Shown: in pieces, positions 1,461 through 48,675 of the stretch
How the letters are laid out: every line of letters begins with the position of its first letter
Position numbering within the stretch: the first letter of the stretch is position 1
Source of the DNA: Escarpia spicata
Taxonomy: Eukaryota > Annelida > Polychaeta > Sabellida > Siboglinidae
Direction of reading: 5' to 3'
Assembly: GCA_963995525.1 (NCBI GenBank)
Contig: OZ023213.1
Location: 18,848,358-18,912,357, forward strand
DNA: 64,000 nucleotides
The notes under the pieces: model-generated
Databases searched by the model: none
What the model saw: only the letters and a program-made list of their open reading frames with translations
What the model was told of the DNA's origin: nothing
Translations under genes and position numbers: made by a program

Positions 1461-1754
1461 GTTTCGTGTGGTAGCCAGAGTGTTGTTCTGCTTTTGTTGT
1501 TGGCGACTTTCTGCTCCTTATCTCCACAAACGGGTGGCGCCAACATTCCCGATCATCTGAAGTACTATTTATCTTGCATCGAAGTGTGTGAGAAGGACAA
1601 CGCAAAGTGTTACAGTGATTGTGAAGTGAATAACAGTTGTGAGGCTTCTGAACAGTTCTGCAAGAATTTGTGTCTGAAGCTGTCTATAGCGTGCCATAGG
1701 AAATGCTACGGTGAGACAGGGAGGCTATTCCATGTACACAATCCAGACGCATAA
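1461..1754 (+). CDS. Nine-cysteine secreted protein, copy 1, exon 2
   Basis: This is the large second exon of a small secreted protein of unknown function. It starts right after the acceptor TGTGTTGCAG and ends at TAA 1752-1754. The first residues complete a signal peptide (VVLLLLLATFC, with likely cleavage near the TGGA that follows). The mature region has nine cysteines spaced x3-x6-x3-x5-x6-x3-x6-x3, exactly as in the other copies. An NNS sequon lies just before the fifth cysteine. The frame extends upstream only through a GTG, which is not a plausible eukaryotic start. The first exon is therefore expected outside the window. Flanks and sequence group this copy with the one at 47873. An AATAAA follows at 1893. 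Function is not recognisable. A secreted, disulfide-rich role is inferred. Confidence 0.75.
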   Translation, partial: VSCGSQSVVLLLLLATFCSLSPQTGGANIPDHLKYYLSCIEVCEKDNAKCYSDCEVNNSCEASEQFCKNLCLKLSIACHRKCYGETGRLFHVHNPDA

Positions 1755-2490
1755 CAGTACATTGATTGCATGCGAGCTAGGCACATTCCCATCGCATGGT
1801 AACAGAACGTTCATCAACACGGAAGCCTTGGGATACTGTGGATACGTTCTGAACATCATGTCTGTTGTGAGGTAAATAATATCTTCTGAACGAATAAAGA
1901 AACCAGAGTTCATCTACTTTGAAGGAAGCTCGCAATGACTAATAATCATTTACATATGTCGTTAATATATTAAGTATTTCAAATAGGTGTCCTTAAATTG
2001 TTGTATGTCATACGTCATTGTCATGTATTTAGTAGCTTTGTTGTCGTACAAAACATGTTTTATTCTACACTTCGGTTACCCACTTAACAATTATTACATG
2101 TGCTTTTAGATACCAGTAGATTAGCCCATTTAATAATACAATTATTCATGGTTATATAAGGTCAAAGGCTTCAGTTACATTAAGAAATACCTTTTCATGA
2201 TAATAGCTTTGTGGTCAATTTCACTTTTTCTGAAACAGTGATGGCATTCTTCTATCGTGTGGGACTATATTGTGATTACTGCAGCTCAGACAACATGGGC
2301 GTTGTCCTTCCCAAATCTTGCTTCAAAAAGCGCCATGCTGCAATTTAACAAAAATCAAACATTAGTTCCTCTGTTCCAACACGTCTGTTTGTGTTGATAG
2401 TTTAGCAATACCCTTATCACGAAAAACGTTCACTTGTTCCCAATGTTAATGGACAATATATTTTTTGGTAAATAACTAAAATCATACAAA
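1755..2490 (+). repeat. Conserved 3' flank of the gene family, copy 1
   Basis: The sequence after the stop is collinear with 48167-48540 and 48676-49390. Shared blocks include 'acattgattgcatgcgag', 'gtcaaaggcttcagtta' and 'cgttcacttgttccca'. Duplication therefore copied at least 700 bp of downstream DNA with the exon. No open frame is preserved among the copies. 2490-2895 is AT-rich with no visible feature. Confidence 0.7.
1893..1898 (+). promoter_or_regulatory. Poly(A) signal AATAAA for copy 1
   Basis: A canonical AATAAA lies about 140 bp after the stop of copy 1. The surrounding block 'atcttctgaacgaataaag' recurs after the 47873 copy, after its partial duplicate near 48820, and in decayed form near 22650. 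This supports a real 3' end rather than a chance match. Confidence 0.6.
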
Positions 2491-2895
2491 AAGGATATAT
2501 CTATATATATATATGTATAATCAAACTCCAATATTTTGTTTTTTGGTTTACTAATACTGTGTAGCACATAAGATAAAACTACTGTAAAATATTACAACCA
2601 TTTTTTTTTGCAAGCAGTTTCATGACATATTTGCATTATAAACGCGAACGTTTATAATGACATCCGTAGGTTGATGCTTTTACTGGAATCACATGTTAGT
2701 ATTCTAAAGGTATATTCATATTATTAAAAATTAAATCCAACTATATACAACGTATATATATATATATTTCCACTTAAAAAAAAATATATTGATATTTTAT
2801 TTCGAAAAATCATTGATACTAAAACAATGATTATTTATTATCACAACTACGATGGTAAATAAGTACACATAAGAGACACACAAATGTACCATCAA

Positions 2896-3185
2896 TATAC
2901 GTTTTTATATAGTGTAGAATGCAATACTCAGAACTGCTCTCAGCGCTTTACACGTAACTCCGTGGCAGACCTGTTCAATCGAACGCCATCTCAACTTCTC
3001 TGGGACGAATCCGGCAGCACTGCAATTGGTGTGCAAAGCTTCTTTGTACACAAATGTCAACAACTGTCTATACCCAGGAACTGATTCACACATCTGAGTG
3101 AACTGGAGCAACGTAGAGTGAACGACACACCAGCATAGGATTCGAATCCGGGTTCTCTTCCACTAGACGGTCGTAATAAACGGTG
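2896..3185 (-). mobile_element. tRNA-headed SINE, minus strand
   Basis: On the minus strand a tRNA-like head with a B-box core (GGATTCGAATCC, about 3139-3150) is followed by 'gtgaatcagttcctggg'. Next comes a body ending in 'gcgctgagagcagttctgag' and 'actatataaa', which resembles the LINE-derived tail of invertebrate tRNA-SINEs. There is no intact cloverleaf, so this is not a tRNA gene. The family name is uncertain. The SINE call rests on the B-box plus the conserved-looking body and tail. Confidence 0.55.
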
Positions 3186-4233
3186 ATGTCATAATAAAAG
3201 TTGCAGTGCTGTTGTCATATAGCTTGACTAATGGACATGTATAACAAAACAGATGCGGGATAATTTATATTATTTGACTTCATATAGCACAATCTAATTG
3301 GTACTGGTTTAAAATGAATAATATATTGTTTAGGAGAAGTCTGATATTAGACATATTGTGTCTTTATCGATGTCTGATTGATTTAGTACATTAACCGTCA
3401 TGTGTAATGTAAATTCATCAGTTGTAAATGCACGGTTTGATAGTCTTCTTCTTGTTTCAGTTTATCATATTAGTTTGCATTCATTCCACGTTATTCATCA
3501 CACCATGTCTAAAGTTTTAAGTTTACTGATGTTTTGCGTAGAAAATAAAGTTGTTATGTATGACGAAATAGAAAACAGTTGGCTTTGCAATGGTATCGAG
3601 TTTGTTTTCGTGGGATAATTAATAGTATGGTGAATGCGGACTTACAAAATGTGTTCCGCAGGTATCGGTTATATTTGTTATAATTGGGTACCTGTGGAAT
3701 AGCTAATGACTTATTTATATTAACTTCATCGCCTTAATGAGAATATTTCATATCTAGCTTGACAGGGAACACATAGTGAAACATATTTAACAACATATTT
3801 TGATTAAATATTTTGACTTAAACATAAGATAATTTTAACATAACATTTTGTTTATAGTCCCACCAGCATATATACAATATATATTTATACATTATTTGTT
3901 TTAACGGTAAATGATTGGTGTGCTAGCAACGAAAACACAATGCTAACATCCATTTTTTTCTGAAGAGTTTGTATAATTCCATTTAATGATAACAATAGGC
4001 TAGCCATATAATTTTGTTACAAACGTTATAATTCTAACACAACTGGCGCCTCTAGAATAACAACACTTATTGTTAAAATATATCATCATCATCCAGAATG
4101 TTTTTGGCGTTGGCTAGAATGTCGTACACACTTGCGACGGAGGTTTGTGGTGTTATTTGGTATAACATTTCCCATTCTTTATATCCTTTTTTTCCCTATT
4201 CGAACCCGTCTCGGGATGGTGTCTTTAACAAAG
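3186..4233. other. AT-rich stretch without recognisable features
   Basis: No family similarity, splice-bounded exon or RNA gene could be recognised. Several short A/T runs occur. The sequence separates the SINE from the CA/TG tract upstream of the first orphan exon. The open frame at 3400-3618 has no recognisable domain. Confidence 0.4.
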
Positions 4234-4605
4234 CGCACACACATACATATATACACACACACGCACACAAGCACACACGCACGCACGCACCCACACACGT
4301 TCATTCACAAGCACACGGACACATACTTACACACAAACCCGTACAAATATTCTAAATAAATATAATCAACTTTGTGTGTGTGTGTTTTTGTGTGTGCGTG
4401 TGTGTGTTTGTTTGTTTGTGTGTTTGTGTGCGCTTTCATGCGTGCGTGCGTGCGTTAGTGCGCGTGTGTCGGTTTGCGTGTTTTGCGTATGTTCCGGTGG
4501 CTCGGTGTGCCAGCGTGCCAGCGTGCCAGCGTGCCAGCGTGCCAGCGTGCCAGCGTGCCAGCGTGCCTGTGTGTTTGTGTGCTGTGTGCCTGTTTCGTAT
4601 GTGTT
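4234..4605. repeat. (CA)n - spacer - (TG)n microsatellite pair
   Basis: A CA/CGCA-rich tract (about 4234-4339) is followed by a short AT spacer, then a TG/TGCG-rich tract (4373-4605). The tract contains about seven copies of the 8-bp unit CAGCGTGC at 4508-4568. The two halves are complementary and could pair. The same arrangement lies upstream of the first exons at 10119, 23466 and 26111. Both strands show long open frames here, but they are simple-repeat artefacts. Confidence 0.85.
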
Positions 4606-4878
4606 TTCCCAAAAAATATGCCCGCTAAACGCAGCGGAAGAAAAGTCCACTAAACGCACCGGAATCTGATTGGTTATTTACTATTGACACCCTTCAGTTG
4701 AAGACCGTGGAGCCAACGCTGTTGTTTATCTTCTCACTACAGATATTGTTGTTATTTAATTATATCGTTCCTGGCCTAATTTACAGTGAATTGTTGCTTT
4801 TCAACGTGCCACGGCGCCTAGCATTTCTGGTTTTATCAATGCAATACTACACCATCGTTACTCAGCGCCACCGACGTT

Positions 4879-4890
4879 ATGCATGCCAAG
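4879..4890 (+). CDS. Orphan first coding exon (MHAK) of the cysteine-rich family
   Basis: ATG CAT GCC AAG is followed directly by the donor GTAAAAGTAT. The 5' side (cgttactcagcgccaccgacgtt) matches the 5'UTR blocks before the first exons at 23466 and 39687. The 12-nt exon ends in phase 0, matching exon 2. No exon 2 is recognisable before 20724. This exon may therefore be the remnant of a gene whose second exon was lost when the RTE and PIN-like sequences arrived, or an extra distal promoter. Upstream, 'ctgattggtta' recurs near 23220. Confidence 0.6.
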
Positions 4891-5880
4891 GTAAAAGTAT
4901 GACGATTTGGAAACACATGAAATTATTCAACTGTTCGTTGGAATTATGGTGTATTTTCTTAAGGTGATAGCCGGGCAGTTATGTTATGTAACACGAATAT
5001 GCCATTTGTAATGTTCGTCTACGACTCTTACAAGGTCATCTTGTTGAATCCGTTGTTTTAAATGAGTTGTTGTTGTTATCGTTGCAGTTATTATCAAATA
5101 TATATTCTTGACTGTTAACGTATTCGTCAATATTGGTCGATATATTTTGCAAACATTACTATAACTGCACTCTTTCCTAGTAAACTTACCTATTTCAAGT
5201 TCCATTTGTTACAATATTGTTTTCTCACTCATTTCTGACATTTCTGCGCTGGCTTTCTGTCCGATATCATATCATTTAATTGTTCATCAAGTTGGAAGAA
5301 TAATTTAAGGTGACGTTTATCATACAATTAACAATGATCACTCACGTCAACGTTTCGACTGCCGTCAGCATTCGTAATTTCTGGTTTGTTAATCCTGTGC
5401 TTAGATGGTGTGGCGAGCAGGCTGTCTCATACGTAATTCAGTCTGTATCACCCTCTTCTTGGTTCACGTTGAAACGGTCCAGAAACAAACCAGTTCCTCT
5501 GAAGACTGCCGACATCAGTCGAAATGTTGAAGTCAGTTCAGTTCTTAGTTGTGCCATGACGAACATTGGTTTCTTGTTGTTGTTGTTATTATTGTTGTTG
5601 TTGTGGCTGCTGTAGTAACAGCTGCTGCAGCGTTTCTGTTCCATTTTGTCAATTTCAGATGCAACTACTTAATTACCTGGTTAGGCTGATATGCAAATTT
5701 TGTCGAAATGTTGTTAGTACTTGTTATGTGTGCTTAACGAAATAAGGATCATTTAGTGCACATCTGGTTGGCCGCTTCAAGTGCATACACAGTACTTGAA
5801 TTGCAATAAATAAAGCCAACAAGGGCACATATGATACAGGAATCCGTTAAAATTAATTCGTGTTGCTATTTTTTCCTAAT
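4891..5880 (+). other. Intron-like sequence after the orphan exon
   Basis: No exon is recognisable. A (TTG)n/(TTA)n run at 5570-5605 is followed by 'gctgctgcagcg', which recalls the CTG/TTG block at 700-745. This suggests shared intron ancestry with copy 1. Open frames here lack domain similarity. Confidence 0.4.
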
Positions 5881-5881
5881 A

Positions 5882-7097
5882 ATTGTCATATCCTTCCTTT
5901 TATTAATCAGTTTCCACGAGTCTTCAATAATCCACTTTTCTCTGTTGGACTAACACTACATTCGCGCTCTCCTTTACGGCTTGAAGGAATAGCTGCCATT
6001 GCTCTTCTATGTCGGTTCCGTGTTGTAGCGCTTGGAATCTGTTCTAGTTTCCTCGTAAAATTGTTTTGATATGTCTATGTTCTTTAAGTTGTCTGTCGCA
6101 CATGGCCTGACCGTATTCATCGTTTTGACTCTCTTTAACTTCAAGCGGATTGTACTAATCACAAGGTTGTTGTCAGAGCCAACATCTGCCCCTCTATAGG
6201 TCCGAACGTCCTGTAGAGATGTACGCGGTATACTACTAATGCAGACACGATAAATCTCATTCGAAGTATTGCCATCTGGTGAGATCCAGGTTTTCTTGTG
6301 GATGCGTTTATGTTTGAAGAAGGTGTTGCCAATGCTGATACCACTGGCGGTGCCCACCGAGAGCAATCGTTCACCGTTATCATTAGTATTTCCAGCTGAA
6401 CCTTGAGGTCCAACCGTAGGTTACATGTCTCTTCTGTCTCCATCCAACAACATCCAATATGTCAAAGCTTGGTATCTCGTCAAGCACGTTCTGGAGGTGG
6501 TCGTAAAAGGTGTCCTGTTCCTTGTTTGTGGCGACTTCGGTTGGGGCATATACTTACACTACCGTGACTTTGACATGTCTGGTGTTGAACCTCGCTGTGA
6601 TGATGCGTTCACAGACTGGCTTCCACCCTATCAGTGCTTGTGTGGCATCCTTATTCAGGATGGTGCCAACTCCATGGATGTGGTGATTTTCATTTCCAGA
6701 GTAGAGTACAGTTTTATATCCGCTGTTGAAGCATCTCATCTCGCTTACGCATAGAAGATCTAAGTGGTAAGACTTCTATTCCTTCAGCACTTGTTCCATC
6801 CGCCCGCTCTGATAGTTCGAACGTTCCATGTGCCTACACTGGTGTTAAAGATATGGCTCATCGGGGATCGAGCTTCCTGACGGCTTTCACTTAACTCTGT
6901 TATAGATACATCTGTATATGCAGATGCGTCCTCATTTATGGGTGTGCCTTCTCTACTTCCCCTTGAAAGTGTACCGGAATGGCTTCTTCTTGTCGTTTCT
7001 GTAATAATGTTTGTTTTTACGGGGTAGGGATACTGGCCCTACGCCCAACCCTCCTCCTTTTTCAACCTGGCTTGGGACAGGCTTTGGCGGAGTTCGT
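5882..7097 (-). mobile_element. RTE-type LINE, 5' part with endonuclease, antisense and broken
   Basis: Reading from 7097 leftward, this matches the + copy starting at 56979. It has the GC-rich leader with 'ccaggttgaaaaaggagg', then an apurinic-type endonuclease like the craniofacial-development-protein-2/RTE group. That includes the AMRR/VSEMRCFNSG-like segment, YSGNENHHIHGVG, then GISIGNTFFKHKRIHKKTW and GADVGSDNNLVI. In the last motif the usual SDHN histidine is replaced by N. Several frameshifts and stops occur and homology ends near 5882, so the RT domain is missing. Both RTE copies begin at the same 'gaactc(t/c)gccaaag', which suggests this is the true 5' end. It probably deleted or overlaid the left arm of the adjacent PIN-like element. 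Confidence 0.8.
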
Positions 7098-7101
7098 AAT
7101 T

Positions 7102-7416: not shown

Positions 7417-8738
7417 TGTGATTGATTCGATTGCGCTTCGAGAAATGAAGGAAAGCAAGTACATCGCCGGTTTTCCCGATTGGTTCTACGATCCTATAAG
7501 TAGTCCCACCAAGACGATTGACATTCTAATGAAAGAAGCAGGAAAAAGGAAAAAAGGGCAGGCCAGTCATCGATTTTGAGAACATTTTTTTCCGGCTCTT
7601 GATGATTGGTCAGTGGCAGCAGATGGAGCTTGGGCCTTTGCTTTTAACTACGAACTGTTTGGAATACCTTCCATCGCTCATAGATGAGCATGGTTGTCCC
7701 CGCAAAGCCAACAGGCCGGGGCTGATCAAGCGCCTGGGTGTGCTAGCGATCTCGCAAACAGCTGCTGAAATTTTCATCGTGGATGTTCAGCATCTGTTCT
7801 ACTGCATCGTGTGGCCACACGGCGGCAGTCCCTCAGACCTCAACGCATCCATCCAGGGTCGTTTGAATCATTATCCAGATGGTACTGAGAAAATAAATCA
7901 TTATCTTCGACAAATACCAAGATGTATATGTCAAGGATCACGAGAGAATATGGGTGTCTGATGAAGTTACGAGCTCACCATCACCAGTCCTCTGCCCAAA
8001 AGATACGCAATCTTGAAGAGCAAGAACAACAATTGGAGCCTGGTGAGCGTGTTGTCTACCTTTAGTGCAGGAGAGAACGTTAGGATGGAGACTCGTAACG
8101 ATGGTGCGTTTGGTCATGATGAGGCGGCCATCACCATGATCTCCTATGTCATTGAGGCTGCCAACTCTGGTAAAAGCGTGATTCGTGTACATAGCGACGA
8201 CACAGACGTGTTTGTCCTACTGATCTATTGGGTGTATCGGGAGGAGCTGGAGTGCAAGGTGCAGATGGAGCGGTGGGATGGGACAGAGCTGGACATAAAC
8301 ACCACCTGCATTGACCTAGGGCCACAGTGTCTACAGTTACTTGGCATGCATGCCCTCAGCGAGTGCGACACGACTTCATATCCGTATGCCAAAGGCACCA
8401 TTAACGCACTAAACACCTTGCTCTCTGGAGACTTCCCAGGTTCGGATGATGTGCTGGGGGAGGTGATCCCCACGAAGGCGGATTTGATGGAGACAGCGAA
8501 AACCTTCTTCATCGCTCTGTATGGTCAGCCACCGGGGACATCCATGGAGTCTGCCTGTTTCACCAAGAGGAAAAAAGTCCAAAAGTCAATGCCCTGCATG
8601 CCTCCAACATCCACCATCCTGTTCATGCACGTGTTGCGGGCCCATCTGCAGGTGAAGGTGTGGAAAGCGGCATTCCAGCAAGCTTCACCCGATGAGTCAG
8701 CCGATATCACCAGATGTGACTACGTGCTACAAATGTAA
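7417..8738 (+). pseudogene. PIN/FEN-like element gene, frameshifted
   Basis: This resembles a multicopy animal gene family with a PIN/FEN-like nuclease core. A front part reads NVIDSIALREMKESKYIAGF then a stop. A middle part includes EIFIVDVQHLFYCIVW, which fits the first acidic strand of the fold. After a frameshift at about 7890 it continues as IIIFDKYQDVYVKDHER. The long frame from 8013 holds HDEAAITMISY, SDDTDVFVLLIYW (acidic residues about 62-65) and GMHALSECDTTSYPYAKG. The end has LPPTS-like PPTSTILFMHVLRAHLQVKVW. HDEAA replaces the more usual HDEAD, so a probable metal ligand is lost. It is best called a pseudogene. It sits beside a long inverted-repeat arm and is duplicated at 21781. 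The family's activity is unproven. The nuclease role is inferred from motifs. Confidence 0.65.
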
Positions 8739-10118: not shown

Positions 10119-10130
10119 ATGCATGCCAAG
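10119..10130 (+). CDS. First coding exon (MHAK), probably of the 20724 gene
   Basis: ATG CAT GCC AAG is followed by GTATGTACTCCG, a strong donor. The next 100 bp of intron ('cgatttctagtaagcaatgtg') match the introns after 23477 and 26122. The exon ends in phase 0. The nearest downstream exon 2 is at 20724, giving an intron of about 10.6 kb packed with transposons. That pairing is inferred. An intervening exon 2 could have been lost. Confidence 0.65.
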
Positions 10131-16136: not shown

Positions 16137-18060
16137 CTAGGGCAGAATCAGAGTAGTTCTCCCCACAGACATGACAGTGCCAAACATCATTACTAATATT
16201 TTGACCTTCTTTTTTGCTTTGCTTTTCTTTTGCCCCTGTTTGTAGCTCAAACGGTTTCTTTTACTGGTCTTGACTGCTGCTTTATCAGCTTGATTTTTCA
16301 TATTTAGCCGTTCAGGAGTGTCTGTCGGAATAACGGTATGCCGTTTCTTCCTGTTTCCTCCTTTAGTATTCCTTGGAGTAGCCTTTCTGAAAAGTCGCAA
16401 TGACTCTGGTGTCATGATTACATCAGGTAAACGACTGGTATCTTTCCCAGCCTTTGTGATGCCTGGCAGTTCTTTTCCTCCATCGGATTCGTTCGTAATA
16501 GTAGTAGGCACAGGTTCTGGAACGCCTTCAGACGAAGTGTGACTCTCATTAGGCCTACATGGTTGAGAGGATGGGGGTTGATTAACAACACTGCCACCAG
16601 TTCCGTCTCCATGATCACCTTGTGGTAGTCCTGGCTCCGCAGGTGTATCATCGTCACCCATTTCTTCAGCCTCGGGTTGTTGTGGCGCTTGCTCCTCAGG
16701 ACGATCGGTTACATCACTCGGTAGGAACTGAATCTGTTGTTGTTTTCTTGGCAAGTCGTAGATTGTCATAGTCTTTCCCGGGTGGGATTTCATCCAGCCG
16801 TCGCATGAAGCAGTGAAACATTTCTTGAATGGAACATACACACTCCGGTCCAATGGCTGGAGCATGTGTGAACAGTGTGGCGGGAATGTGACCAAAACTA
16901 TCCCATTCTCTCTGCAGTAATCTACCAGATCTATAGAGACACGAGAGTCATGATTGTCGAGCAGAAGCAGGATAGGCGTTTCTTTCGTGCACTTTGCGAC
17001 CGAAACAAAATGTTTCATGAATACAAAGATCTTTTTTCTCGGTCATCCATCCAGAACGATGCGCAGCCCCTATGCAGCCAGGAGGATCATCTCTAGCAAA
17101 AAGTGGTCCCTAAAGTTAACACGGGGGAACAAAAACATTGGAGGGATTGTGTTGTCATTGGCGCTGACTGTCACAGACAAAGTTACCATGGTTCCCCTCT
17201 CGGCAGACGTAGTAGCTCCAACCTGTTTTGAACCTTTTCCGACAACAATGCGACTTGGACGCTGTACTAGGGTGGTGCCTGCCTCATCTACATTGTAAAT
17301 GTCATGACATTGTAAATTATATCTACCCATTACATCAGAGGGGTTGTTGAAAAAGCACAGCACATTATAATTACTGAATCTGGTTGCTCTGCTGAGACTT
17401 TTTGCTTCCGGAGTACGCAAGGAAAGAGTAGTATGTATTTTAAGGAAATTATACAACCAGTCTGGACCTGCCATTTCCGCTTCAGTCCAATTATGTGGGA
17501 CGTTCATGTTGTGGCTGACTGCAAACTGGTAGGCAAACAGCCTGAGCTCTTTGAGTGTCAGTCCATAGTAGACCTTTGATGCTTTTAGTACATAATCTAC
17601 CAGAAGCTTCTCCTGGGCAGGGCTGAATACTAGTCTAGGTTGCCTGCATCCTGCGTCGCTGCATTTGCCAGCTCTTCGTTTCTTGCAGTAATGGTACAGG
17701 GTCATAAAATTGATCTGGAAAACTCATGTTAATCTAGACGACAACATTAGGCTTAACGGGCGTCATTTTTATGATAATCCAATGGGAAGGAGTTAGCCTA
17801 ATTTCCTTAAATATTGACTGTTTGTAATTTTCTTGTAGAACAAGTTGGCCTTTGAGCTATAAAGTAAATACATATATCACTCTGACAAAGGCACAGTCAC
17901 ACGAGCCAAAGTTGGGTCCTAACCACCATCTTACGTTTTAATCATCTGCCACCTTTCGTAAGCTTTCATGATATTTGATTACTCGTTCATATGCCCTCTC
18001 CATAATTGCAGCAGTACATCTCTCCGCTTGATCTGTTTTCGTTTTGTACGTTCGAACTAT
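16137..18060 (-). pseudogene. pogo/Tigger-type transposase with intron, inactivated
   Basis: The minus strand encodes a DDE transposase of the pogo group. Exon 1 (18060-17935) is a psq-type helix-turn-helix starting VRTYKTKTDQ and reading SLRKVADD. Its start codon is ATA instead of ATG, and a TAA replaces the codon after ADD. The donor GTAAGATGG and acceptor TTTTCCAG bound a 220-bp intron (17715-17934). Exon 2 from 17714 continues NFMTLYHYCKKRR, then the CENPB-type segment (PDWLYNFLKIHTTLSLRTPE) and YNVDEAGTTLVQRPSR (first D). It also has VTLSVTVSANDNTIPPMF. A frameshift at 17018-17095 precedes the part with LLLLDNHDSRV (second D) and HMLQPLDRSV (third D). A lysine-rich tail follows. It is dead as a transposase. 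Ends of the transposon were not identified. Confidence 0.85.
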
Positions 18061-20723: not shown

Positions 20724-21005
20724 CTTTCCTTTGGTAGTCCGGGAGTTGTTCTTCTTCTGTTGCTGGTGAGGTTCTGCAGCCAGTTTCCTGAAGCGACCTG
20801 CTCAGAGTATGATCTGCCATACTATCTCTCGTGCATCGATGGGTGTCTGAAGGAAATAAAACAGTGTTTCAGAGATTGTGAGAATAATAATACATGTGCG
20901 GCATCTCGAGAGTTCTGCAAGGACATGTGTATGAAAGCGGTGATTGCGTGCCATAGGAACTGTTTCGACGAGTCAGTGAGGTTGTTCCATGAAGCTAACA
21001 CTTAA
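20724..21005 (+). CDS. Nine-cysteine secreted protein, copy 2, exon 2
   Basis: Exon 2 follows TGTGTGTTGCAG and ends at TAA 21003-21005. It encodes a signal-peptide core (VVLLLLLVRFC) followed by a mature segment starting near SEYDLPYYLSC. Nine cysteines occupy the family positions, an NNT sequon precedes the fifth, and there is one extra cysteine at the signal-peptide boundary (EATCSEY). The end FHEANT is shorter than in copies 1 and 5. The start codon must come from an upstream first exon, most likely 10119-10130 in phase 0. The 80 bp before the acceptor match those before 24037 ('ccatttattatcatct'). Molecular role is unknown. Secretion is inferred. Confidence 0.75.
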   Translation, partial: LSFGSPGVVLLLLLVRFCSQFPEATCSEYDLPYYLSCIDGCLKEIKQCFRDCENNNTCAASREFCKDMCMKAVIACHRNCFDESVRLFHEANT

Positions 21006-21780: not shown

Positions 21781-22455
21781 GATGTTACGAGGATTGGAGA
21801 CTGGCAAAGATGGTGGGTTTGGTTATGATAAGGCGGACATCACCATGATCTCCTTTGCCATTGAGGCTGCCAAGTCTGGGAAAAGCGTGTACTTAGTGAG
21901 ACACAGACGTGTATATCCTACTGGTATATTGGGTGTATCGAGAGAAGCTGGAGTGCAAGGTGCAGATGGTGCACTGGGATGGGACATTGGTGGATATCAA
22001 CGCCATCTGCGCTGACCTAGGGCCAGAGTGTATGCAGCTGCTTGGCATGCACGCCCTCAGCGGGTTGCGAACCGACCTCATTTCCATATGTCAAAAGCAA
22101 GATCAACGCACCAAATATCTTCCACACAGAGGACTTCCCAGGTTTGGATGATGTGCTGGGGGAGGTGGGCGCCACGCAGGCGGTTCTGATGGATAATATG
22201 AAAACCTTCTTCTTCGCTCTGTATGGTCAGCCACCGAGGATATTCATACTCTTCACCAAGAAGAAGAAAAGTGACAAAGACAAGGCCCTGCTTCCAACAT
22301 CCACCAACCTATTCGTGCACATGCTGCGGCCCAATCTTCAGGTCATGATGTGGAAAGCGGCAGACCAGCAAACCTCACCCGCTGAGTCAGCCGATATCAC
22401 TCACTTCGGGTGGGAGATCCAGGATGGCGTCACCAATTTATGCAAATTACCGTAG
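21781..22455 (+). pseudogene. PIN/FEN-like element gene, second copy, internally deleted
   Basis: Frames switch at least three times: YDKADITMISFAIEAAKSGK, then LLVYWVYREKLECKVQM with DLGPECMQLLGMHALSG, then DDVLGEVGATQAVLMDNMK and LPTSTNLFVHMLRPNLQV. It corresponds to residues about 25-241 of the 8013 frame. The part equal to 7220-8080 is deleted. HDEAD-like acidic residues are kept (YDKAD), but the DTDV motif is destroyed by a frameshift. A clear pseudogene. Confidence 0.7.
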
Positions 22456-23465: not shown

Positions 23466-23477
23466 ATGCATCTCAAG
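23466..23477 (+). CDS. Nine-cysteine secreted protein, copy 3, first coding exon (MHLK)
   Basis: ATG CAT CTC AAG is followed by the donor GTATGTCCTCCG. The 5'UTR block 'caaaatacaactcc' with 'cgccactaccgaagtt' recurs before the exons at 26111 and 39687. It joins exon 2 at 24037 in phase 0 over a 559-bp intron, the shortest in the cluster. This makes it the clearest complete gene model here. Confidence 0.75.
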
Positions 23478-24036: not shown

Positions 24037-24324
24037 CTTTCAGATGGTAGTCCACGCGTTGTTCTGCTTCTGTTGCTGGCGAATTTCTGCTGCCAGTTTT
24101 CGGAAACGGCTGGCACCAATTTCCCCGAACATCTAAAGTATTATCTCTCGTGCATCGGTGTGTGTGAGACGGAAATCAAAAAGTGTTACCATGATTGTAG
24201 GCAGAACAACACTTGTGCAGCGTCTCGACAGTTTTGCAGAAACCTGTGCATGAGAGTGGCTGTAAAGTGTCATAGGAAATGTTATGACGAGTCAATGAGG
24301 CTGTTCTTCGAAAATAAGACTTAG
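24037..24324 (+). CDS. Nine-cysteine secreted protein, copy 3, exon 2
   Basis: The exon encodes a signal-peptide core (VVLLLLLANFCC), an AG-T type cleavage region, and a mature segment with the invariant nine cysteines. An NNT sequon precedes the fifth cysteine. It ends at TAG 24322-24324. The acceptor is unusual: the family TTGCAG is TTGGAG here. The preceding GTG has become ATG, so an ATG-TTG-GAG frame opens 9 nt before the splice point. Either GAG is used as a weak acceptor, or this copy is read from its own ATG, or it is unspliced. Exon 1 is at 23466. Function is unknown. Cysteine-rich secreted role inferred. Confidence 0.75.
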   Translation, partial: LSDGSPRVVLLLLLANFCCQFSETAGTNFPEHLKYYLSCIGVCETEIKKCYHDCRQNNTCAASRQFCRNLCMRVAVKCHRKCYDESMRLFFENKT

Positions 24325-26110: not shown

Positions 26111-26122
26111 ATGTATTTCAAG
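26111..26122 (+). CDS. Nine-cysteine secreted protein, copy 4, first coding exon (MYFK)
   Basis: ATG TAT TTC AAG is followed by donor GTATGTACTCCG. The 5' block 'agaaaatacaactg' and 'gctatcaccgaagtt' match the other copies. Two of four residues differ from MHLK, but the reading phase and donor are unchanged. It joins exon 2 at 27439 over a 1316-bp intron. Confidence 0.75.
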
Positions 26123-27438: not shown

Positions 27439-27726
27439 CTTTCTGGTGGTAGTCCGAGTGTTGTTCCGGTTCTCTTGCTGGCGATTTTCTGCTGCCAGTT
27501 TCATGATCCGGCCTGCGCCATCGACCCCGAAAATCTGCCGTACTACATCTTTTGTATCAATGAGTGTAAGAAGGAAAAAGAAAAATGTTATAACGATTGT
27601 GAGGTGACCAGCGATTGTGTGGCTTCTCGGCAGGTTTGCAAGAACCTATGTCTAGAGGTGGCGTTATCTTGCCAAAGGAAATGCTACTTTGAAGCAGAGA
27701 AGCTATTAAATGGACCATTTCTTTAA
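27439..27726 (+). CDS. Nine-cysteine secreted protein, copy 4, exon 2
   Basis: After acceptor TGTGTTGCAG the exon gives a signal-peptide core (VVPVLLLAIFCC), a HDPACA-type boundary with an extra cysteine, and the nine-cysteine mature segment. It ends at TAA 27724-27726. This copy is the most divergent. The fifth-cysteine loop reads EVTSDC, so the N-glycosylation sequon present in the other complete copies is lost. The region is rich in lysine (KKEKEKC), and the tail is LLNGPFL. With exon 1 at 26111 it forms a complete two-exon gene. Function unknown. Confidence 0.75.
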   Translation, partial: LSGGSPSVVPVLLLAIFCCQFHDPACAIDPENLPYYIFCINECKKEKEKCYNDCEVTSDCVASRQVCKNLCLEVALSCQRKCYFEAEKLLNGPFL

Positions 27727-34495: not shown

Positions 34496-36192
34496 ATTTA
34501 ACAAGACAAGATTTAACAAGATTGCCATCCAGAGAATTAACTCTAGATGGCAGGTGGACAAGGAAGCCCTTTGGTTTATCGAGAGCCCAACCCATTTATC
34601 TACATATATCCAGCCCTTCTGAGGTATTTGTCGATTTTATTTTTAAACATATTCACACTACTAGCACCCACACAATCATCAGATAATCTGTTCCATTAAT
34701 TCACAGTCCTTTGTGAAAATGAGAACTTTCTTACGTCTAATCTACGCTGCTCCTTTACTAATGTAACTTCATGTCCTTTAGTCTTTCTATGCTTCTTAAC
34801 TGAAAAAAACATATTTCTATGAATATTTTCATAACCAGTCAATATTTCAAACACTTCTATCTGATCTCCTCTCAATCACCTGGTCTCTAGTGTCGTTAAA
34901 CCACATTCGTTTAGGCGTTTTTTATAACTAAGATCCCTCAGTTTTGGTATTATTTTAGTCGCTCTCCTCTGTACTCTTTCTAGCATATCTATGTCCTTCT
35001 TGCGATATGGCCTCCACGCTTGTATACAATATTCTAAATGAGGCCTAACTATTGTTTTGTACAGCGGTATTATTAGTTCTTTTTCTTTATATGCTATATT
35101 TCGCCTAATCAATCCAAGGATTTGATTTCCTTTTGAAGCTGCAATTCCACACAGCTTTGAAATCTTCATGTCATCACTAATTGTCAGCCCTAAGTCTTTT
35201 TCTTTTACAGTAGTAATTAGTACAGTTCCCCACATTCTATATTCTACATATTCGTTCCCATGTCCTGTGTGAAGGCATTTACATTTCCCAAAATTGAACA
35301 ACATTTGCCTCTTTTCAGACAATTTGATCAACCTGACAAGATCATCTTGTAAATGCTGTCTATCTCCATCACTTTTAATCCTTCTAAACAATTTTGTATC
35401 ATCTGCAAATTTCAACACCTTGCTAGCTATATCATCGCCCAAATCGTTTATATATATTAAGAATAATATAGGTCCCAGTACTGATCTCTGTGGAACCCCA
35501 CTCAAAACTGATTTCCAGTTTGAAGCCTCACCATCAACAACTACCCGTTGTATTCGGTCAATCAGCCATTTTTCTATCCAGTTAGTTATACCATTTCCTA
35601 TGCTATGGGCCTTTAGTTTAAGCAGTAATCTTTCAAGTGGCACTTTGTCGAAAGCTTTTTGAAAATCTAAGTAGATGATATCTACTGGTGATCCATCATC
35701 TATCCACTTAGTGATATCTTCCAAAAAAACATAACATATTTGTTAAGCAGGACCTCGCTTTTAGAAACCCATTTTGAGATGGGTTTATCAAGTTATGTTT
35801 AACAAGAAAATCCACCATGTGATCTTTAATTAGTCTTTCTAATAATTTACAAATCACCGATGTTAAACTAACTTGTTTCTCGAACCTTTCTTAAATAACG
35901 GTATAATGTTTGCTTCTTTCCATTCTAAAGGAACCACTCCCTCTTCTAATGACAAGTTGAAAACTGTTGCAAGCGGTATGGTAATTTGTTCTACAATTTC
36001 CAATAGTAGTTTGGGTGGAATACCATCCACTGCAGGTGATTTATTATCCTTCATAGCCCTAATTTTCTTAGCTACCATTTCTGGGGTTACAATTAACTGT
36101 CTTAAATAGTCTGATTCTGCCACCTTGAACTTAGCAGTGAACTAATGTCTTCTCTGGTAAACAATGAACTAAAATACTCATTTCGGTCTTCT
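34496..36192 (-). mobile_element. CR1 LINE, 5'-truncated insertion with AATAG duplication
   Basis: The element reads on the minus strand and is flanked by AATAG at 34491-34495 and 36193-36197. Unit 2 has a single AATAG at the matching site (38532-38536). The RT spans two frames. 36123-35863 gives KIRAMKDNKSPAVDGIPPKLL and VVPLEWKEANIIPLF. 35724-34876 gives SPVDIIYLDFQKAFDKVP (motif A), SGVPQRSVLGPILFL (motif B, with R for the usual G) and KFADDTKLF (motif C). It ends GLTTLETR. The 3' end has short repeats of TCTTGTTAAAT. ORF1 and endonuclease are absent through 5' truncation. Confidence 0.92.
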
Positions 36193-36457: not shown

Positions 36458-38796
36458 GTATGCGTCCCTGACACTTACATCCTCCTATGCAAAGCAACAA
36501 TGCAAGACAAATGTAGATTGAAATAGGCCAACTTAATGACATTTAGCTTTATTCGGTTACATAACTCATAAACTACAACATAAATACATCAATACATATT
36601 CACAGCAATCATGCTGGTCCCAGTGGTATTGCTAACCACTACCTACAAGTCGTAGACGTATTACCAACCACCAGTACTAACTATCTCGCTCTCTATCGGT
36701 GGGGGTCACTCCGCCACCAGGGCACCTAAAATCAAATGTGACCGACCCCCACCAACTAACCGCCATGCATTGTTACCGACATTGATGTCATTAACACAAA
36801 ACCACCACCGTTGGAATGTAGCTATTAAACCGATTTCATAAATATATGCCATATACGTACGATACCCCTGCTGTCTCCGCCACTATCAGAGACGCAGGTA
36901 TACCTTAACGCTACCATGTAGTTAAGCAACCGCTGCTGCCTCCGCCCCTGTCAGAGACATATCCCTACTGCTAACTTCTAGAAACACTGCTCCCCCTATA
37001 CAAGTAAGATATACCGCTGCTGCATCCGCCCCTGTCAGAGACATATGCCTACTGCCAACTTCTAGAAACACTGCTCCCCCTATACAAGTAAGGTATACCA
37101 CTGTTGTCTCCGCCCCTGTCAGAGACATATGCCTACTGCCAACTTCTAGAAACACTGCTCCCCCTATACAAGTAAGATATACCGCTGCTGCCTCCGTCCC
37201 TGTCAGAAACATATGCCTACTGCCAACTTCTAGAAACACTGCTCCCCCTATCCAAGTAAGATAAATCGCTACTGCCTCCGTCCCTGTCAGATACACATCC
37301 CTACTGTTAACTTCTAGAAACACTGCTCCCCCTTTACAAGTAAGATATACCGCTGCTGCCTCCGCCCCTGTCAGAGACATATGCCTACTGCCAACTTCTA
37401 GAAACACTGCTCCCCCTATACAAGTAAGATATACCGCTGCTGCCTCCATCCCTGTCAGAGACATATGCCTACTGCCAACTTCTAGAAACACTGCTCCCCC
37501 TATACAAGGACTTAACAAGTGAACCGATATGAACAGCAAAGATTCATATACCGCACCATTATGAAATAGCTCCCCGTATGCATCCCTCAAGTCATATTAT
37601 AACAAAATATATTGTATATTATATACAATTGACACTTGCCATCTCGTTGAATGTGAACACTACATATTCGTCTAGCTCTCCTCTTTACAACAACTGCCAT
37701 TCTCATCCCAGAATGCTACACCTCCCACTCACCAGTACTTACGACAAGATGCTATGTATCCACCTGACTGACTTGACTGCGGATACTAACTTCCTTAGTT
37801 AAATGCGACTTCTTGCACCCGTCAAGACCCATTTCACTGGCCAACCCCATGTTTTTGTTAGTTTTTATTTTTTTATTTTTTTTATTTATTCTCAGCATTA
37901 CAACAGCTACAGTACGACAACTGCCGCTACCAGTACATTAATACAAAAACAAGCTAGCTTGTTACACTGCTGCCTACTTGCCTAAGTACCACGCTAACCA
38001 TCTAACATACCAGAAAGTCACTGACCAAACTATTAGTATTACACGGGCGTTCGCCACATTCCCTCTATCTCCCCATTATCGTCGTCCCCCAATACCCTTC
38101 ACGGCCAAAAAGACGGCACCCCTGCCAGACACTGTCGCCCCGAAAGTCGAAACCCAGCAAACTAAATCCTGCAATAAGTGCCCTCAAAATCCGAACCCGT
38201 TACGAAACGCAACTCCGACGATGCTACAAATCTCTCCAGCTAAAATCATAACTGTCACCCAAAAATAGCGTTAAGGCTTTACCATCCCCACAACCTGCCA
38301 TCATTTACACCTAACCACTCTAAGAAATGATAGTTAGCTTCTTTTTTGTTTTGTTTTCCACTCCTTCCTGCACGACGCAAATCCGTTATCCGTCGTATGC
38401 CTTGCTCAAAATGGCGTCGTACTGATCGACACGAGGTATCTGCTCAACTTTCTTGCTCCAACCACCGCAAATAAAAGCCACTAACAAGACCATATTAACA
38501 GACAAAATCACAACTTGAATGACCATAAACCAATAGCAATAACAAATTCAACAATAACCCACAAAATGAAGTAAATGATTCGTCAAGCGAAAACCACGCG
38601 CAGAACCGTTCAATCAATATCTCCGTGAACGGCGCATTGGGACGAGCCCGTTCATACTACGAGGACTAATTACTGCTATGTAATCTTACGCGTACGAGAA
38701 AGTCCGCTCTCTATATTGTCCACCAGGTTACCCTTGGCCTATTCCGCTAGGGGACACCACCTTCCTTCTTACACTGCTACTTCACATAGGATATTT
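36458..38796 (+). repeat. Tandem repeat unit 2, with both transposon-free sites
   Basis: Carries the empty pogo site (36659-36662) and empty CR1 site (38532-38536). It also carries an 84-bp minisatellite and an AT/CA-rich middle (37590-38500) with no gene I can recognise. Short frames there (37578-38268) are proline, threonine and serine rich, without domains. Confidence 0.7.
36922..37590 (-). repeat. 84-bp minisatellite, seven units, open on the minus strand
   Basis: Seven units of 84 bp each encode 28 residues around CIGGAVFLEVGSRHMSLTG on the minus strand. Because 84 is a multiple of three, a single open frame of 222 aa spans the array. Changes between units include both silent and replacement sites, with CKGG.. 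and WIGG.. variants. No signal peptide, start context or homologous protein is evident. I class it as a minisatellite and leave coding as an open possibility. Unit 1 lacks it. Confidence 0.75.
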
Positions 38797-39686: not shown

Positions 39687-39698
39687 ATGCATCTCAAG
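39687..39698 (+). CDS. Nine-cysteine secreted protein, copy 5, first coding exon (MHLK)
   Basis: ATG CAT CTC AAG then donor GTATGTACTCCG, with the conserved 5' block 'cgccaataccgaagct'. The downstream DNA at 41265-41590 matches the intron of copy 4, and 47590-47760 matches the intron of copy 3 near 23755-23920. This exon therefore most likely joins exon 2 at 47873 across an intron of about 8.2 kb expanded by insertions. Confidence 0.7.
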
Positions 39699-41818: not shown

Positions 41819-41819
41819 C

Positions 41820-43735: not shown

Positions 43736-43895
43736 ACTCACAGTCTGCCTGAAACCAAATCTTTGCGTGGTGATTAGCTTGTGCAATATGAAGTTGTAGG
43801 GTGGAGGGTGGGGCGTTGCTGTCCTGCCCGGACATATATGCTGGCACGTAATTGGCATAGTAACATCCATACAAGCAAGATATGTGTCGCATGTC
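43735..43895 (-). pseudogene. Fragment of PIN-like family C-terminus
   Basis: The minus strand reads NAPPSTLQLHIAQANHHAKIW followed by FQAD. This aligns by eye with LPTSTNLFVHMLRPNLQVMMW at 22305 and its relative at 8605. It lies in the spacer between the arms of the inverted repeat. The fragment suggests the structure once carried a full PIN-like gene. Confidence 0.45.
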
Positions 43896-45060
43896 GCACA
43901 TGAGTTCTCAACGTAGGACGACAGCGTGAGCGGTCTTGAAACTATTAAAGTATTGGAGCAGAAAAGTGAGATAACCTTTTAAATAGTGATACAAGCACCG
44001 ACCTTGGCATGGACACTAATAAGGGACCACCTTTTGAAAAAAGCCCATTAGCCACCGGAAATTTCAAAATGAATGTGTAATGAACATTCATAATCCTAAA
44101 TCGACTTCTTACCCCCACATTTCCCCATATATACATGTTACTGTACCATCAGACCAATCAAATGGAGTTCAACACAATAATTCTGTCGCCATTTAATAGC
44201 TGTGAGTCACTCAGGTCAGATGTTCCGCCACGTCAACAATAGTAGAAGCTATCGACTGATAAGTCTAAATTTATCAACGACTTCAAAGTGACCATGAAAA
44301 TGTACTTGTTTGTCTTTTATTTCTGTCTTTTCACTTATAACACTTATCAACTTAATGTTCACTTAACGTTACAGTATGAACTTGCTTGTTCCAGATGGCT
44401 TTCTAGTGTTTGTCCATATTGTCCACTCAATGTCTTTGCACTTATGGCACCCCTTTAATCATCCATACCGATTATGAGTCAAGTCTGGCATCTGCAGCTG
44501 CACGTGACACAAAAGGCTGATGTTGAATTCATGTTAGTGCGTGGAAGCTCAGCGGGCTATCATTCGCTAGGTTGTGTAAGACTTTCAGGGTGTGAGAAGT
44601 CCGAAAGTACCAAGACACTGGGCAGCTATACCTTTGGTGTTGAGTTAATGCCACCTCCAAATATGGCTATAGAAAGCGGAAATGGGGATAGCTAAAGCTT
44701 CATGGTATTCACCGGTTACACTATTCCTCCAGTAGTGACACCATTGACATATTTCTGTAACAGCTTTATGTCAACTTTGGTAGTGTTTTGTGCATTGTGT
44801 AGTTACAAAGGTTTATGAACCTTTCTTCCTCGGTGCGTCATGAAACGATGTACATTCTTCAACCAGTCGTTGCTTCACGGTGATGTTAACCTACTATGTT
44901 TCTTTGTCTTTAGGTTTTAGATGAGTTGACAGTTGACCAAGTCACTTGCAGCAGAGTATTTCGCTGCCATATGTACTAAAGGCATGTCGTTATTATGTGG
45001 GTCAATTAGGTTTCTACTGTAGGCTCCTCTATGGAGTTGTCGACGATATTGCTGGCACAC
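43896..45060. other. Centre of the inverted-repeat structure
   Basis: No intact gene. The + frame at 44474-44695 (73 aa) has no recognised domain. The region is probably decayed element DNA. Confidence 0.35.
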
Positions 45061-45069
45061 ACACACGCT

Positions 45070-45790
45070 TCACAGGAAAGCAACTCCGTCGCCAAGTAGC
45101 AAAAACAATGAACAAAAGGCCACAACGCTTGCGTCCGTAACCATCGCTCCCATATGAGTCAGTTTTTCCATATTCACCGTAAGTTCCTCTGAACACAGCA
45201 AGAACTTTGTGACAAGCTTCATTGGATTATCAGCGTCACGTTTCCATGCTTCATCCGTGGCCATATACCATCAGAGGAGTTGAACGTGTTCTCTTCCCCA
45301 TCTTCCATACGTAAGAGGAGTTTCTTGACTACTGTGACGTCCGTAAGCGTTCTGACCATGTGACGCAAAACGTATTCATGGCTTGATCGTCCCTTGTAAG
45401 GCTGATGATGCCTGTATGCATCTTGCATAATCTATACATCAATTCAATTGGCTGATCAACTGGAATTTGGTTGAAGGGCCTTTTGGTTTTCTTCAAAACA
45501 AAGTGTCCTTTAAAGAATACTACACGAACATCTGGTCCTGCCTTCTCGGGGTGTTTATTATCTGCCAGAGAGACTGTTCTCCATCGGGAGGGCATAGTTT
45601 GTATGATCGTAAGTGGTTAGCCAATGTATAATTGCACCGAAATATTCTATGTAGCTGCCAATCGTCTCAGCCCTGATGATGTCTAGTGTTATCTCCATAG
45701 TTTCCACGGATGTCAACCAGAACCTGAAATTAGGATACCTCCTTGTGATATTAAATTGTCTCGTTCCTAAAAAAAACATCTGACACTTGG
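45070..45790 (-). pseudogene. Element gene fragment (YDHTNYA / KKTK domain), right arm
   Basis: In minus-strand order there is RRYPNFRFWLTSVETMEITL, then IHWLTTYDHTNYALPM. After a frameshift comes VVFFKGHFVLKKTKRPFNQI, with PVDQPIEL and GIISLTRDDQAMNTFCV, then a lysine/aspartate-rich part (NPMKLVTKFLLCSEEL). This is the better preserved of the two inverted copies. The layout matches multicopy, transposon-associated proteins of fish and invertebrates that have a W..xxDHxxYARW core. The protein's activity is not established. Frameshifts near 45590 and 45330 inactivate it. Confidence 0.55.
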
Positions 45791-46985
45791 TCGACTGTTT
45801 TGAGAGTAGAGTTCTAATCTGCGATTGCCACCTGTCTTTATCAACATCCTAACTACTTTTGGACAAGTTATTTAACTTTCACGTCATGTTAATGACCAAA
45901 TGCATGTGTAGTAATACATAATCTGCATATTATATCAACAGGAATATATTTGTGTACAAGTTTGAGTTTGTGACATTAAAATAACCTTCAATATCGAGGG
46001 TGCCATCCACATCCACCTATTTGTTATCCCTTGTGTGAGCAAGATTTCCTGCCATTAACAAACATTTCGAAAATTCATCTTCTCACGGTGACCTTGATTA
46101 ACCTGCACTCCACAGTTAGAATACTATTATACAACTCCATGCCATACCACATTTTGATGACGATCCAATACGCATTCAAACGTATGTAAAATGGCATAGT
46201 ATATGTTGAAGAAGTAGCTACGCAACTACTGGAAGTGTAGAACTTTTGCGGAGTGGCGTAGTTTTGAACATTCGTCGTTCGATGGTGACCTTGTTTAACC
46301 TTCACTCCACACCTATTGCACCATTTGATAGCTCCCCGTTGTATCCCGTTTTTACGGAGAGCCAGTTGCCTTTCCTGTATACGACATTGCCATGAATGGA
46401 AAAGTAAAGTAGATGTACGCAACCATTTATTTTGTATGATGTTTGCAGGATAACACAACTACGAATGTTTATTTTTTGACGGTGACGGTTTGATCGTCGC
46501 TCCACACTTTTTCAATCAACTGACAGCTCTTTGACATATCTCGTTTTGACGGGGAGAAATGTTTCTTTCATACGGTGTATGACCCGTACATGAAGTAACA
46601 CAGGGTCATTGTAATTTTATAACTTTCGCGTTATTGCAAAAAAATAAATTGAATGTTCATCATTTCACAGTGACCTTGTTTTGCTCTAGCTCCACTCGTA
46701 CCATATCAGGTAACACCACCATATCGTACCCAGTTCCTATGTGGAGACAATAGTCCTTCCAAAAATGTATGACGTGGCTATCTTGTTATTAAGTAAAGTA
46801 GACATGCGACCATTGTAATGTTAAGACGAATGCGGAAGCGCTCAATTTCAAAAAATCTCCATTTGACGGTGACCTTGTTTGATCTTGGATTCTCGCTTAC
46901 TGCATCACTTGGCAGCTCTACGACAGGCGTCGTTGGGATGGAGAGATGTATAGGTTTCAAACGATGTAATAATTGGGAGTGTGTA
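45370..46985 (-). repeat. Large inverted repeat, right arm
   Basis: Partner of 41820-43650, with the same tandem 180-200 bp substructure at 46060-46985 ('ttcgtcgttcgatggtgaccttgttta' and relatives). The arm is about 200 bp shorter than the left, from internal deletions. The spacer between arms is about 1.7 kb. Confidence 0.85.
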
Positions 46986-46996
46986 TGGGGTTGCAT

Positions 46997-47590
46997 TTAC
47001 ATCGGTCCGATAGGTGGTTTTACTGCTCGCCTATTAAACTCTTTGGCCAATTTGTCCTGTCTAGAGCACACCGCTCTGCTGCTAAAAGCGGAAGTCCAGT
47101 GTCCTGTCTAACGTGGTCACTCCACCTCCTCCACGCCCTTCCTCCTTTTCTGTGTTCTTTATAATGTTCATTGAAGGCTATTCTTATGATGTTTGTGTTT
47201 GGTATACGGCGAACATGTTATACTGGAGTCGTTTTTGTCTGTTGCAACGCATCTCATCTCAAAAGCTTTAAAAGACTGCGATCATACTGTCCAGGTGTCT
47301 GCGCCATAGATTATAATAGGCAGCAAAAGGGCCTTATATAATCTGGTTTTCATTTTTTATTGAGATGCCTCTCCTTGACAATATGTTATATCCGAATGTA
47401 CAAATGGCTGCTGACGCTAAGGCTATTCGTCTGTTAACATATCTTATTGTACAAAGTACAAAACTGTCCAAGAAACAGAACTCTCTCACAGTCTCGAGTT
47501 CTTTATTTTCCAGGAAGATATGCTTGTCTGCTAAGGTGATTATGTTGCATTTGGAGAGATTGATTTTATAGATAACATCTGGCAATTCTG
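46997..47590 (-). mobile_element. LINE fragment, RT thumb and C-terminal end, antisense
   Basis: The minus strand reads LPDVIYKINLSKCNIITLAD, then ELETVREFCFLDSFV, RRIALASAAICTFGYNILSR and, in shifted frames, EKEEGRGGG with RTDVNATPYTLPII. This is the post-RT region of a non-LTR polymerase (a 'FxYLGS' relic and the RRIxxA stretch). It lies just outside the inverted repeat, within the intron of copy 5. Confidence 0.65.
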
Positions 47591-47872
47591 GACCGTGAAT
47601 ACATTCAATTAATTCTCAAAGCTTGAATCTATAAGTGAAGGCACAATATCATTAGGTCGTGATTCACAAAAAGGTTACCGACAAATGCAGTGGTTTCCAA
47701 GCTAATATCTGCTTTGCGAATTTACCAGGTTATATATACCAAAGTCAATTCGCCCCGTCTATTGAACAGGCTTTATTAAATCAGCTACGGACATCATTTA
47801 AGCAATGTACACATATATACCATTCCTTCCCTTATTGTCATGTAACTTTGTTACTGTATCCGTGTGTTGCAG

Positions 47873-48166
47873 CTTTCAGGTGGTAGCCTGAGCGTTGATC
47901 TGCTTTTGGTGTTAGCGATTTTCTGCTCCCTCTCTCCACAAGCGGCTGGCGCCAAAATGTCCAACTACCTGGAGTACTATTTTTCTTGCATTGACGTGTG
48001 TGATAAGGATAACATAAAGTGCTTCAGTGATTGTGAAATGAATAACACTTGTGAGGCTTCTCAAAAGTTCTGCAAGAACATGTGTTTGAACCTGAGGGTA
48101 GCGTGCCATAGAAAATGCCACGATGACGCAACGAGGATTTACATGGAAACACTTCCAGACGTATAA
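47873..48166 (+). CDS. Nine-cysteine secreted protein, copy 5, exon 2
   Basis: After acceptor CGTGTGTTGCAG the exon encodes LSGGSLSVDLLLVLAIFC, a signal-peptide core in which an aspartate interrupts the leucines. The mature segment keeps all nine cysteines at family spacing and an NNT sequon before the fifth. It ends at TAA 48164-48166. Residues KMSNYLEYYFSC and the long tail YMETLPDV are close to copy 1, and the 170 bp before the exon also match copy 1. The first exon is at 39687. The interrupted hydrophobic core could weaken secretion. Function unknown. Confidence 0.75.
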   Translation, partial: LSGGSLSVDLLLVLAIFCSLSPQAAGAKMSNYLEYYFSCIDVCDKDNIKCFSDCEMNNTCEASQKFCKNMCLNLRVACHRKCHDDATRIYMETLPDV

Positions 48167-48238
48167 CAGTACATTGATTGCATGCGAGCTAGGCACATTC
48201 CCATCGCGTGGTAAATATTATCTTCTAAACGAAAGTAA

Positions 48239-48244
48239 AATAAA
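48239..48244 (+). promoter_or_regulatory. Poly(A) signal AATAAA for copy 5
   Basis: AATAAA in 'gaaagtaaaataaaccgg', at the same relative place as 1893 in copy 1 but closer to the stop (about 75 bp) because the intervening block is shorter. Confidence 0.55.
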
Positions 48245-48540
48245 CCGGAGTTTAAGTACATTGAGGGAAGCTCATAATAGTTAATCATAAGTTGCATAAG
48301 TTGTTAATATATTAAGTATTACAAATAGGAGTCCTAAAACATAACGTCGTTGTACGCCATACATAATTTTTTTCTACACTTCCGGTTACCCTGTTTAAAT
48401 GATTACGTGTGCCTTTCGATACTATCAGATTACCCCTTTTAATTATACCATTACTCATGGTTGTGTAAGGTCAAAGGTCAAATGCTTCAGTTACGTTAAC
48501 ACATACCTTTTCATGTTAATGGCTTTGTTGTCAATTCCAA

Positions 48541-48675
48541 TGTGAAATGAACAATACTTGTGAGGCTTCTCAACAGTTCTGTAAGAATGTGTGTCTGAAG
48601 CTGTCGGTAGCGTGCCATAGGAAATGCTACAATGAGACAGCGAGGCTATACCATGAAACACATCCAGACGCGTAA
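48541..48675 (+). pseudogene. Truncated sixth copy, C-terminal 44 codons
   Basis: Starts abruptly at TGT GAA ATG AAC, in the middle of the coding exon, and runs in frame to TAA at 48673-48675. It keeps six of the nine cysteines, the NNT sequon and the CHRKC end. The sequence just before it (to 48539) is the family 3' flank up to 'gtcaattcca', and the same flank follows intact at 48676-49118. The structure is a tandem duplication of roughly 0.55 kb with breakpoints inside exon 2 and the flank. It lacks splice acceptor and signal peptide, so it is not a working gene, but it could be a downstream cassette. Confidence 0.85.

Follow-up and report, generated by a model that had tools for sequence, protein, structure and literature searches.

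A tandem family of nine-cysteine proteins, predicted to be secreted and to start in a 12-nt coding exon, in the tubeworm Escarpia spicata

Exon modules at the locus

The 64,000-nt stretch of the Escarpia spicata genome analysed here (C10:18848358-18912357 in a 1.06-Gb genome; hereafter, the window) contains a tandem family of short nine-cysteine exons, together with 12-nt exons that would supply their start codons. Five copies of the larger exon (exon 2) lie on the + strand, at 1461..1754 (copy 1), 20724..21005 (copy 2), 24037..24324 (copy 3), 27439..27726 (copy 4), and 47873..48166 (copy 5), and all five share the identical cysteine spacing C-x3-C-x6-C-x3-C-x5-C-x6-C-x3-C-x6-C-x3-C. A somewhat looser nine-cysteine pattern, searched in six frames across the window, matched only these copies and one (CA)n array, which bears out the five same-strand copies described by an earlier reading of the letters alone (the sequence-only reading). 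The other four copies are 47-59% identical to copy 3, and the general layout can be seen in copy 2, which comprises a signal region, the nine-cysteine mature part, and a stop codon. A sixth, truncated copy at 48529..48675 (+) retains seven of the nine cysteines.

Intact exon 2 starts directly after an AG, with TGTTGCAG before four of the copies and TGTTGGAG before copy 3, whose acceptor is TTGGAG. On the same strand, the motif ATG-N6-AAG|GTATGT occurs at 10119, 23466, 26111, and 39687, and each of these putative first exons can be paired by position with a copy of exon 2: 10119..10130 (MHAK) with copy 2 across a 10593-nt intron (GTATGT...TTGCAG), 23466..23477 (MHLK) with copy 3 across 559 nt, 26111..26122 (MYFK) with copy 4 across 1316 nt, and 39687..39698 (MHLK) with copy 5 across 8174 nt. 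All four pairs have GT-AG borders and join in phase 0. A further module at 4879..4890 (+, MHAK) has the donor GTAAAA and is an orphan, given that the next exon 1 comes before any exon 2, while the exon 1 for copy 1 would lie upstream. A profile built from the five modules, with flanks of 120 nt on the upstream side and about 80 nt on the downstream side, recovered exactly these five above threshold in the window, with no sixth module and no exon 1 for copy 1. Thus, of the five GTATGT first exons that had been claimed for five exon-2 copies, four carry that donor and form complete pairs, while the fifth differs in its donor and has no exon 2, and no first exon for copy 1 turned up in the window. 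The common strand, phase, and flanks that had also been claimed fit what is seen, with every module on the + strand, the four pairs in phase 0, and the flank profile finding all five modules. Broken transposase pieces on the - strand (16137-17723; DDE_1 at an E value of 5.5e-10, plus a Tc5-type DNA-binding domain below threshold) sit in the 10.6-kb intron predicted between 10119 and 20724.

In the predicted spliced products, the most hydrophobic 12-residue window begins at residue 11-14, and we infer that a signal would be cleaved around 31 residues from the start and the remainder released outside the cell. With the cleavage site judged by eye, the mature part is 60-70 amino acids (aa) long in the 28 intact copies of the wider cluster described below.

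A larger cluster and its relatives

The family is far larger than what is seen in the window. A protein search of the host genome, for which the query was a majority sequence typed by eye and the threshold E<=1, gave at least 53 matches. Of these, at least 43 fall within C10:18.611-19.303 Mb (692 kb), 40 on the + strand and 3 on the - strand. Some of these matches are pieces of one copy, and the cluster holds around forty copies. We read 314 kb of it, made up of the window, all of 18.60-18.80 Mb, and 3-kb pieces surrounding the best matches, and found 35 exon-2 places at tblastn E<=1e-4, in 28 of which the exact spacing is conserved. At least one block has been duplicated: the copy 3-copy 4 block of the window has a counterpart at 18795517-18800512, to which it aligns in pieces with 85-90% identity. 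Beyond the cluster, contig C5 carries a member (E 2.8e-4 in the genome search, 1.4e-12 with the P0003 query described below) with the identical nine-cysteine spacing. Further weak matches at C10 10.78-11.01 Mb, on C608, and on C2 (E 1e-4 to 0.2) may be older relatives or chance.

The first exons also recur across the cluster. A motif drawn from them was found in the 314 kb 19 times on the + strand and twice on the - strand, while in 20 resampled sequences the mean was 0.05 and the largest count 1. The exon-1 profile gave 23 matches in the same DNA, 20 of them with an ATG-N9-GT core, and the peptides read from these cores, whose length is fixed by the pattern itself, are MHLK, MHAK, MYLK, MYFK, MQLK, MLTK, MHNE, MHPE, or MHTE.

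Additional evidence comes from another tubeworm. Protein database searches in three rounds, the first seeded with the five window copies, returned named relatives only from Lamellibrachia satsuma. The first round matched LSAT2_021945 (P0001; E 2.8e-20) and an unnamed 62-aa protein, the second added LSAT2_021944 (P0003), whose locus number is adjacent to that of P0001 and whose contig is equally long, and the third added P0004, P0005, and P0006. P0003 reads MDVK followed by FSVGK..., with exactly four residues ahead of the part homologous to exon 2, which is also the layout of the predicted MHLK|LSGGS, and this start gives the tiny-exon model independent support at the level of predicted proteins, in agreement with the earlier claim that the start codon and four residues lie in exon 1. 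In P0004, P0005, and P0006, the homology is preceded by RVLQ, RALQ, and VLQ, respectively, and these models seem to have been read through the acceptor, while P0002 begins inside the mature part. Among the six database relatives, then, four seem to be truncated or to start at the wrong place, and the warning that annotation based on open reading frames (ORFs) would miss the true start seems already to have come true in them, as judged from the proteins alone. P0001 seemingly fuses MDVK and a second signal-like stretch, followed by a tail lacking the cysteine pattern, to a normal exon 2, which may hint at paralogs with a common signal but without the nine-cysteine part.

Could translation begin elsewhere, or from a longer first exon further upstream, with no 12-nt coding exon at all? 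For copy 3, a start that bypasses exon 1 would be possible, at an in-frame ATG 9 nt ahead of the acceptor, and the pairing of exons within the window is by position only. Nevertheless, in four of the five copies neither the upstream open frame nor the signal part contains an in-frame ATG, the exon-1 modules recur with conserved flanks, and P0003 has its four residues at the expected place, all of which makes this alternative highly improbable. The modules, the pairs, and the L. satsuma model together support the tandem nine-cysteine family with a 12-nt coding first exon as it had been proposed, and we regard this exon anatomy as very probable, with splicing of exon 1 to exon 2 as its predicted consequence.

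A different objection would take the copies, for the most part, as relics in decay or as fragments moved by mobile elements, and not as working genes. Seven of the 35 exon-2 places lack the full cysteine pattern, several contain stops, and the window includes transposase and reverse-transcriptase pieces. Against this, the nine cysteines are present with no indel between them in 28 of the 35, relatives exist in another species, and the ratio of nonsynonymous to synonymous rates (dN/dS, or omega) among the window copies is 0.18-0.54 within the cysteine core and 0.19-0.80 when the entire mature part is taken, which indicates that the frame has been kept. We consider that general decay or carriage by mobile elements has very little chance of being the correct account.

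A predicted cysteine ladder and changing positions

The mature part of copy 3 (24118-24321) was modelled with AlphaFold, with eight sequences as input, and the result is a helical hairpin with helices at residues 4-30 and 34-67 (mean predicted local distance difference test score, pLDDT, 92.3; predicted template modelling score, pTM, 0.73). The distant relative P0006 gave a model of lower confidence (mean pLDDT 77.8, pTM 0.55, both ends low) with helices at 27-55 and 60-93 and blocks of pLDDT 87-97 across residues 31-80. In both models, the cysteines are mirror-symmetric about the turn: in copy 3, 12+55 = 16+51 = 23+44 = 27+40 = 67, and in P0006, 38+81 = 42+77 = 49+70 = 53+66 = 119. This symmetry suggests four nested disulfides (I-IX, II-VIII, III-VII, and IV-VI) stapling two antiparallel helices, with the fifth cysteine at the turn predicted to be unpaired and free to link two molecules. 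We consider such a hairpin ladder likely, and if true, it would offer protein designers a compact and stable scaffold. An alignment of 24 sequences picked as intact shows the nine cysteines as its sole invariant columns, and a glycosylation sequon, NN(T/S), stands just before the apex cysteine in 17 of 28 copies.

No relative passing thresholds was found in Pfam, Rfam, or the PDB. The Pfam scan of the five window copies and the 24 aligned members produced no score above the curated cut-offs, the lowest E value among the 24 being 0.0058 for DUF7863 in one member. Foldseek returned no match at E<=1e-3, and VIA-align returned generic helical pairs only. We read the family, which has no name in the databases searched, as lineage-restricted.

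Outside the cysteines, the mature part varies, and its net charge ranges from -5 to +6 in 28 copies. Site models, which we ran on 58 mature codons of 20 sequences with a script of our own, two near-identical sequences having been left out, favour a class with omega 2.6-2.9 at 6-14% of sites (M1a/M2a p=2.4e-5; M7/M8 p=0.0023; M8a/M8 p=5e-4), and three mature positions have a posterior >0.9 in both M2a and M8. These results suggest that a small number of positions in the mature part have been under diversifying selection. In addition, comparison of copy 2 with another member, L022, gives dN 0.41 and dS 0.13 in the mature part, and in local alignments the two diverge by 27% in the mature part, 5% in the signal, 11% in the adjacent 107 nt of intron, and 19% in the 3' flank.

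Possible roles and known systems

The best explanation overall, to which we assign a probability of roughly 40%, is that the locus encodes small secreted helical-hairpin proteins acting as fast-changing effectors between the animal and its microbes. Each exon 2, spliced to a 12-nt first exon, would yield a small hairpin whose cysteine ladder stays fixed while its surface changes; the rigid hairpin would serve as a scaffold, variable outer positions would bind microbial or other non-self targets, and block duplication would supply new versions. Predicted secretion, a rigid laddered hairpin, a changing surface, and tandem expansion, when taken together, look most like a repertoire of microbe-facing effectors. 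The molecular upkeep of symbionts by tubeworm hosts is called largely unknown or unclear in two abstracts (PMC6194059, PMC6908572). Lineage restriction, tandem expansion, probable secretion, and signs of diversifying selection are traits that selection between host and microbe can give to a set of genes. Such a family is also easily missed, because as much as 10.6 kb would separate the 12-nt exon holding its predicted start codon from exon 2, and four of its six database relatives seem to have defective gene models.

Several considerations weigh against this explanation. The disulfide pairing is derived from cysteine spacing, and dN/dS among the five window copies gives no sign of adaptation for most of the change. 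The site models were run with a fixed tree and ignored gene conversion, and mean omega is similar in the signal (0.61) and mature (0.59) parts. Of ten pairs compared, L022/copy 2 stands at the extreme (Fisher p 0.013-0.027, uncorrected), and when the fixed flanks of this pair are aligned globally, their divergence (0.42 upstream, 0.41 downstream) is no slower than that of the mature part, so only the local alignments favour fast mature change. A near-neutral or acidic character sets many copies apart from classic membrane-active peptides. We would propose the microbe-facing role of the predicted proteins only tentatively, by analogy with known systems.

One more specific version of this idea is that the family is a tubeworm counterpart of the NCR peptides of legumes and the BCR peptides of aphids, with secreted four-rung hairpins that would admit, confine, or digest the chemosynthetic symbiont and with the variable charge reflecting how different copies treat different microbes. 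We judge this version doubtful. Aphid BCR peptides are described in parts of one report (PMC6594739) as having a signal peptide and a mature part of 44-84 aa with 6 or 8 cysteines, and as being expressed only in symbiont-bearing cells. The likeness is one of outline, a secretion signal (here predicted) followed by a short cysteine-rich mature part, and the two are set apart by description, with nine cysteines in the 28 intact tubeworm places. On the features compared, membership of the BCR family was rejected, and no BCR peptide surfaced in protein searches with family members.

Attractin of Aplysia, a water-borne pheromone of sea hares, is a small secreted, disulfide-stapled helical hairpin with six cysteines, and the tubeworm family, with nine, is set apart from it by description. 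Secreted chemical signals or gamete-recognition proteins that diversified for species or partner recognition would account for a small predicted hairpin with a signal-like start, for the changing surface and near-neutral charge of many copies, and for the N-glycosylation sequon at the apex. Yet around forty copies is, in our judgement, many for one signal, and attractin was absent from the PDB sequence matches, from the protein database matches, and from the best 50 of 95 Foldseek rows, to which the other Foldseek comparisons here also refer. We regard a role of this kind as unlikely.

Another possibility is that these are mucus, tube-matrix, or thiol-based sulfide- or metal-binding proteins in which the unpaired apex cysteine is the working group. 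The odd cysteine count would fit, and in the haemoglobins of L. luymesi, free cysteines are hypothesised to bind sulfide, according to passages of one paper (PMC6862839). Foldseek also listed vanabin2 (1vfi) as a weak row, at TMq 0.32, with a root-mean-square deviation (rmsd) of 5.9 A and an E value of 3.5. The vanabins of ascidians resemble the family as small cysteine-rich helical proteins, and they have eighteen cysteines. Metallothionein was matched in only one of the 24 aligned members (E 0.073), and selection at a few surface sites would, from general knowledge, be unexpected for a matrix protein. We thus think a matrix or thiol function rather improbable.

In layout, the family also resembles the alpha-hairpinins of plants (BWI-2c, EcAMP1, and the walnut Jug r 2 leader). 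In these, a short turn connects two antiparallel helices that are stapled by disulfides, whereas in the tubeworm family both the helices and the staples are predictions. Its inner four cysteines (CX3C-X12-CX3C) resemble their arrangement, and alpha-hairpinins align with the copy 3 model over 29-39 columns at 0.8-1.3 A with E values of 3.2-5.5. EcAMP1 has two disulfides, and the plant forms described come from multi-module or vicilin-type precursors (passages of PMC7191063). In contrast to their two CX3C motifs, the tubeworm family has nine cysteines, four CX3C motifs, a predicted four-rung ladder, and one domain per gene, and it is found in an animal. Pfam and PDB sequence searches of family members gave no alpha-hairpinin match, and membership was rejected on the features tested (nine cysteines in four CX3C against four cysteines in two). 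The searches that we made turned up no described animal example of a four-rung scaffold.

Other elements in the window include two copies of one sequence on the + strand, at 7965-8738 and 21900-22455, which share 81-85% DNA identity over pieces of 166-182 nt; the first is an ORF of 257 aa with no Pfam match. Reverse-transcriptase fragments lie at 34876-36141 (-), 49349-49792 (-), and 55277-56510 (+), with RVT_1 at E 3.7e-17 in 34879-35742 and, below the cut-off, at E 1.5e-6 in 55277-55894, and those near 35.9k and 49.5k match each other at 91% over 263 nt. Finally, 36929-37508 is an 84-bp tandem repeat of 6.9 copies with 92% matches and long open frames on both strands.

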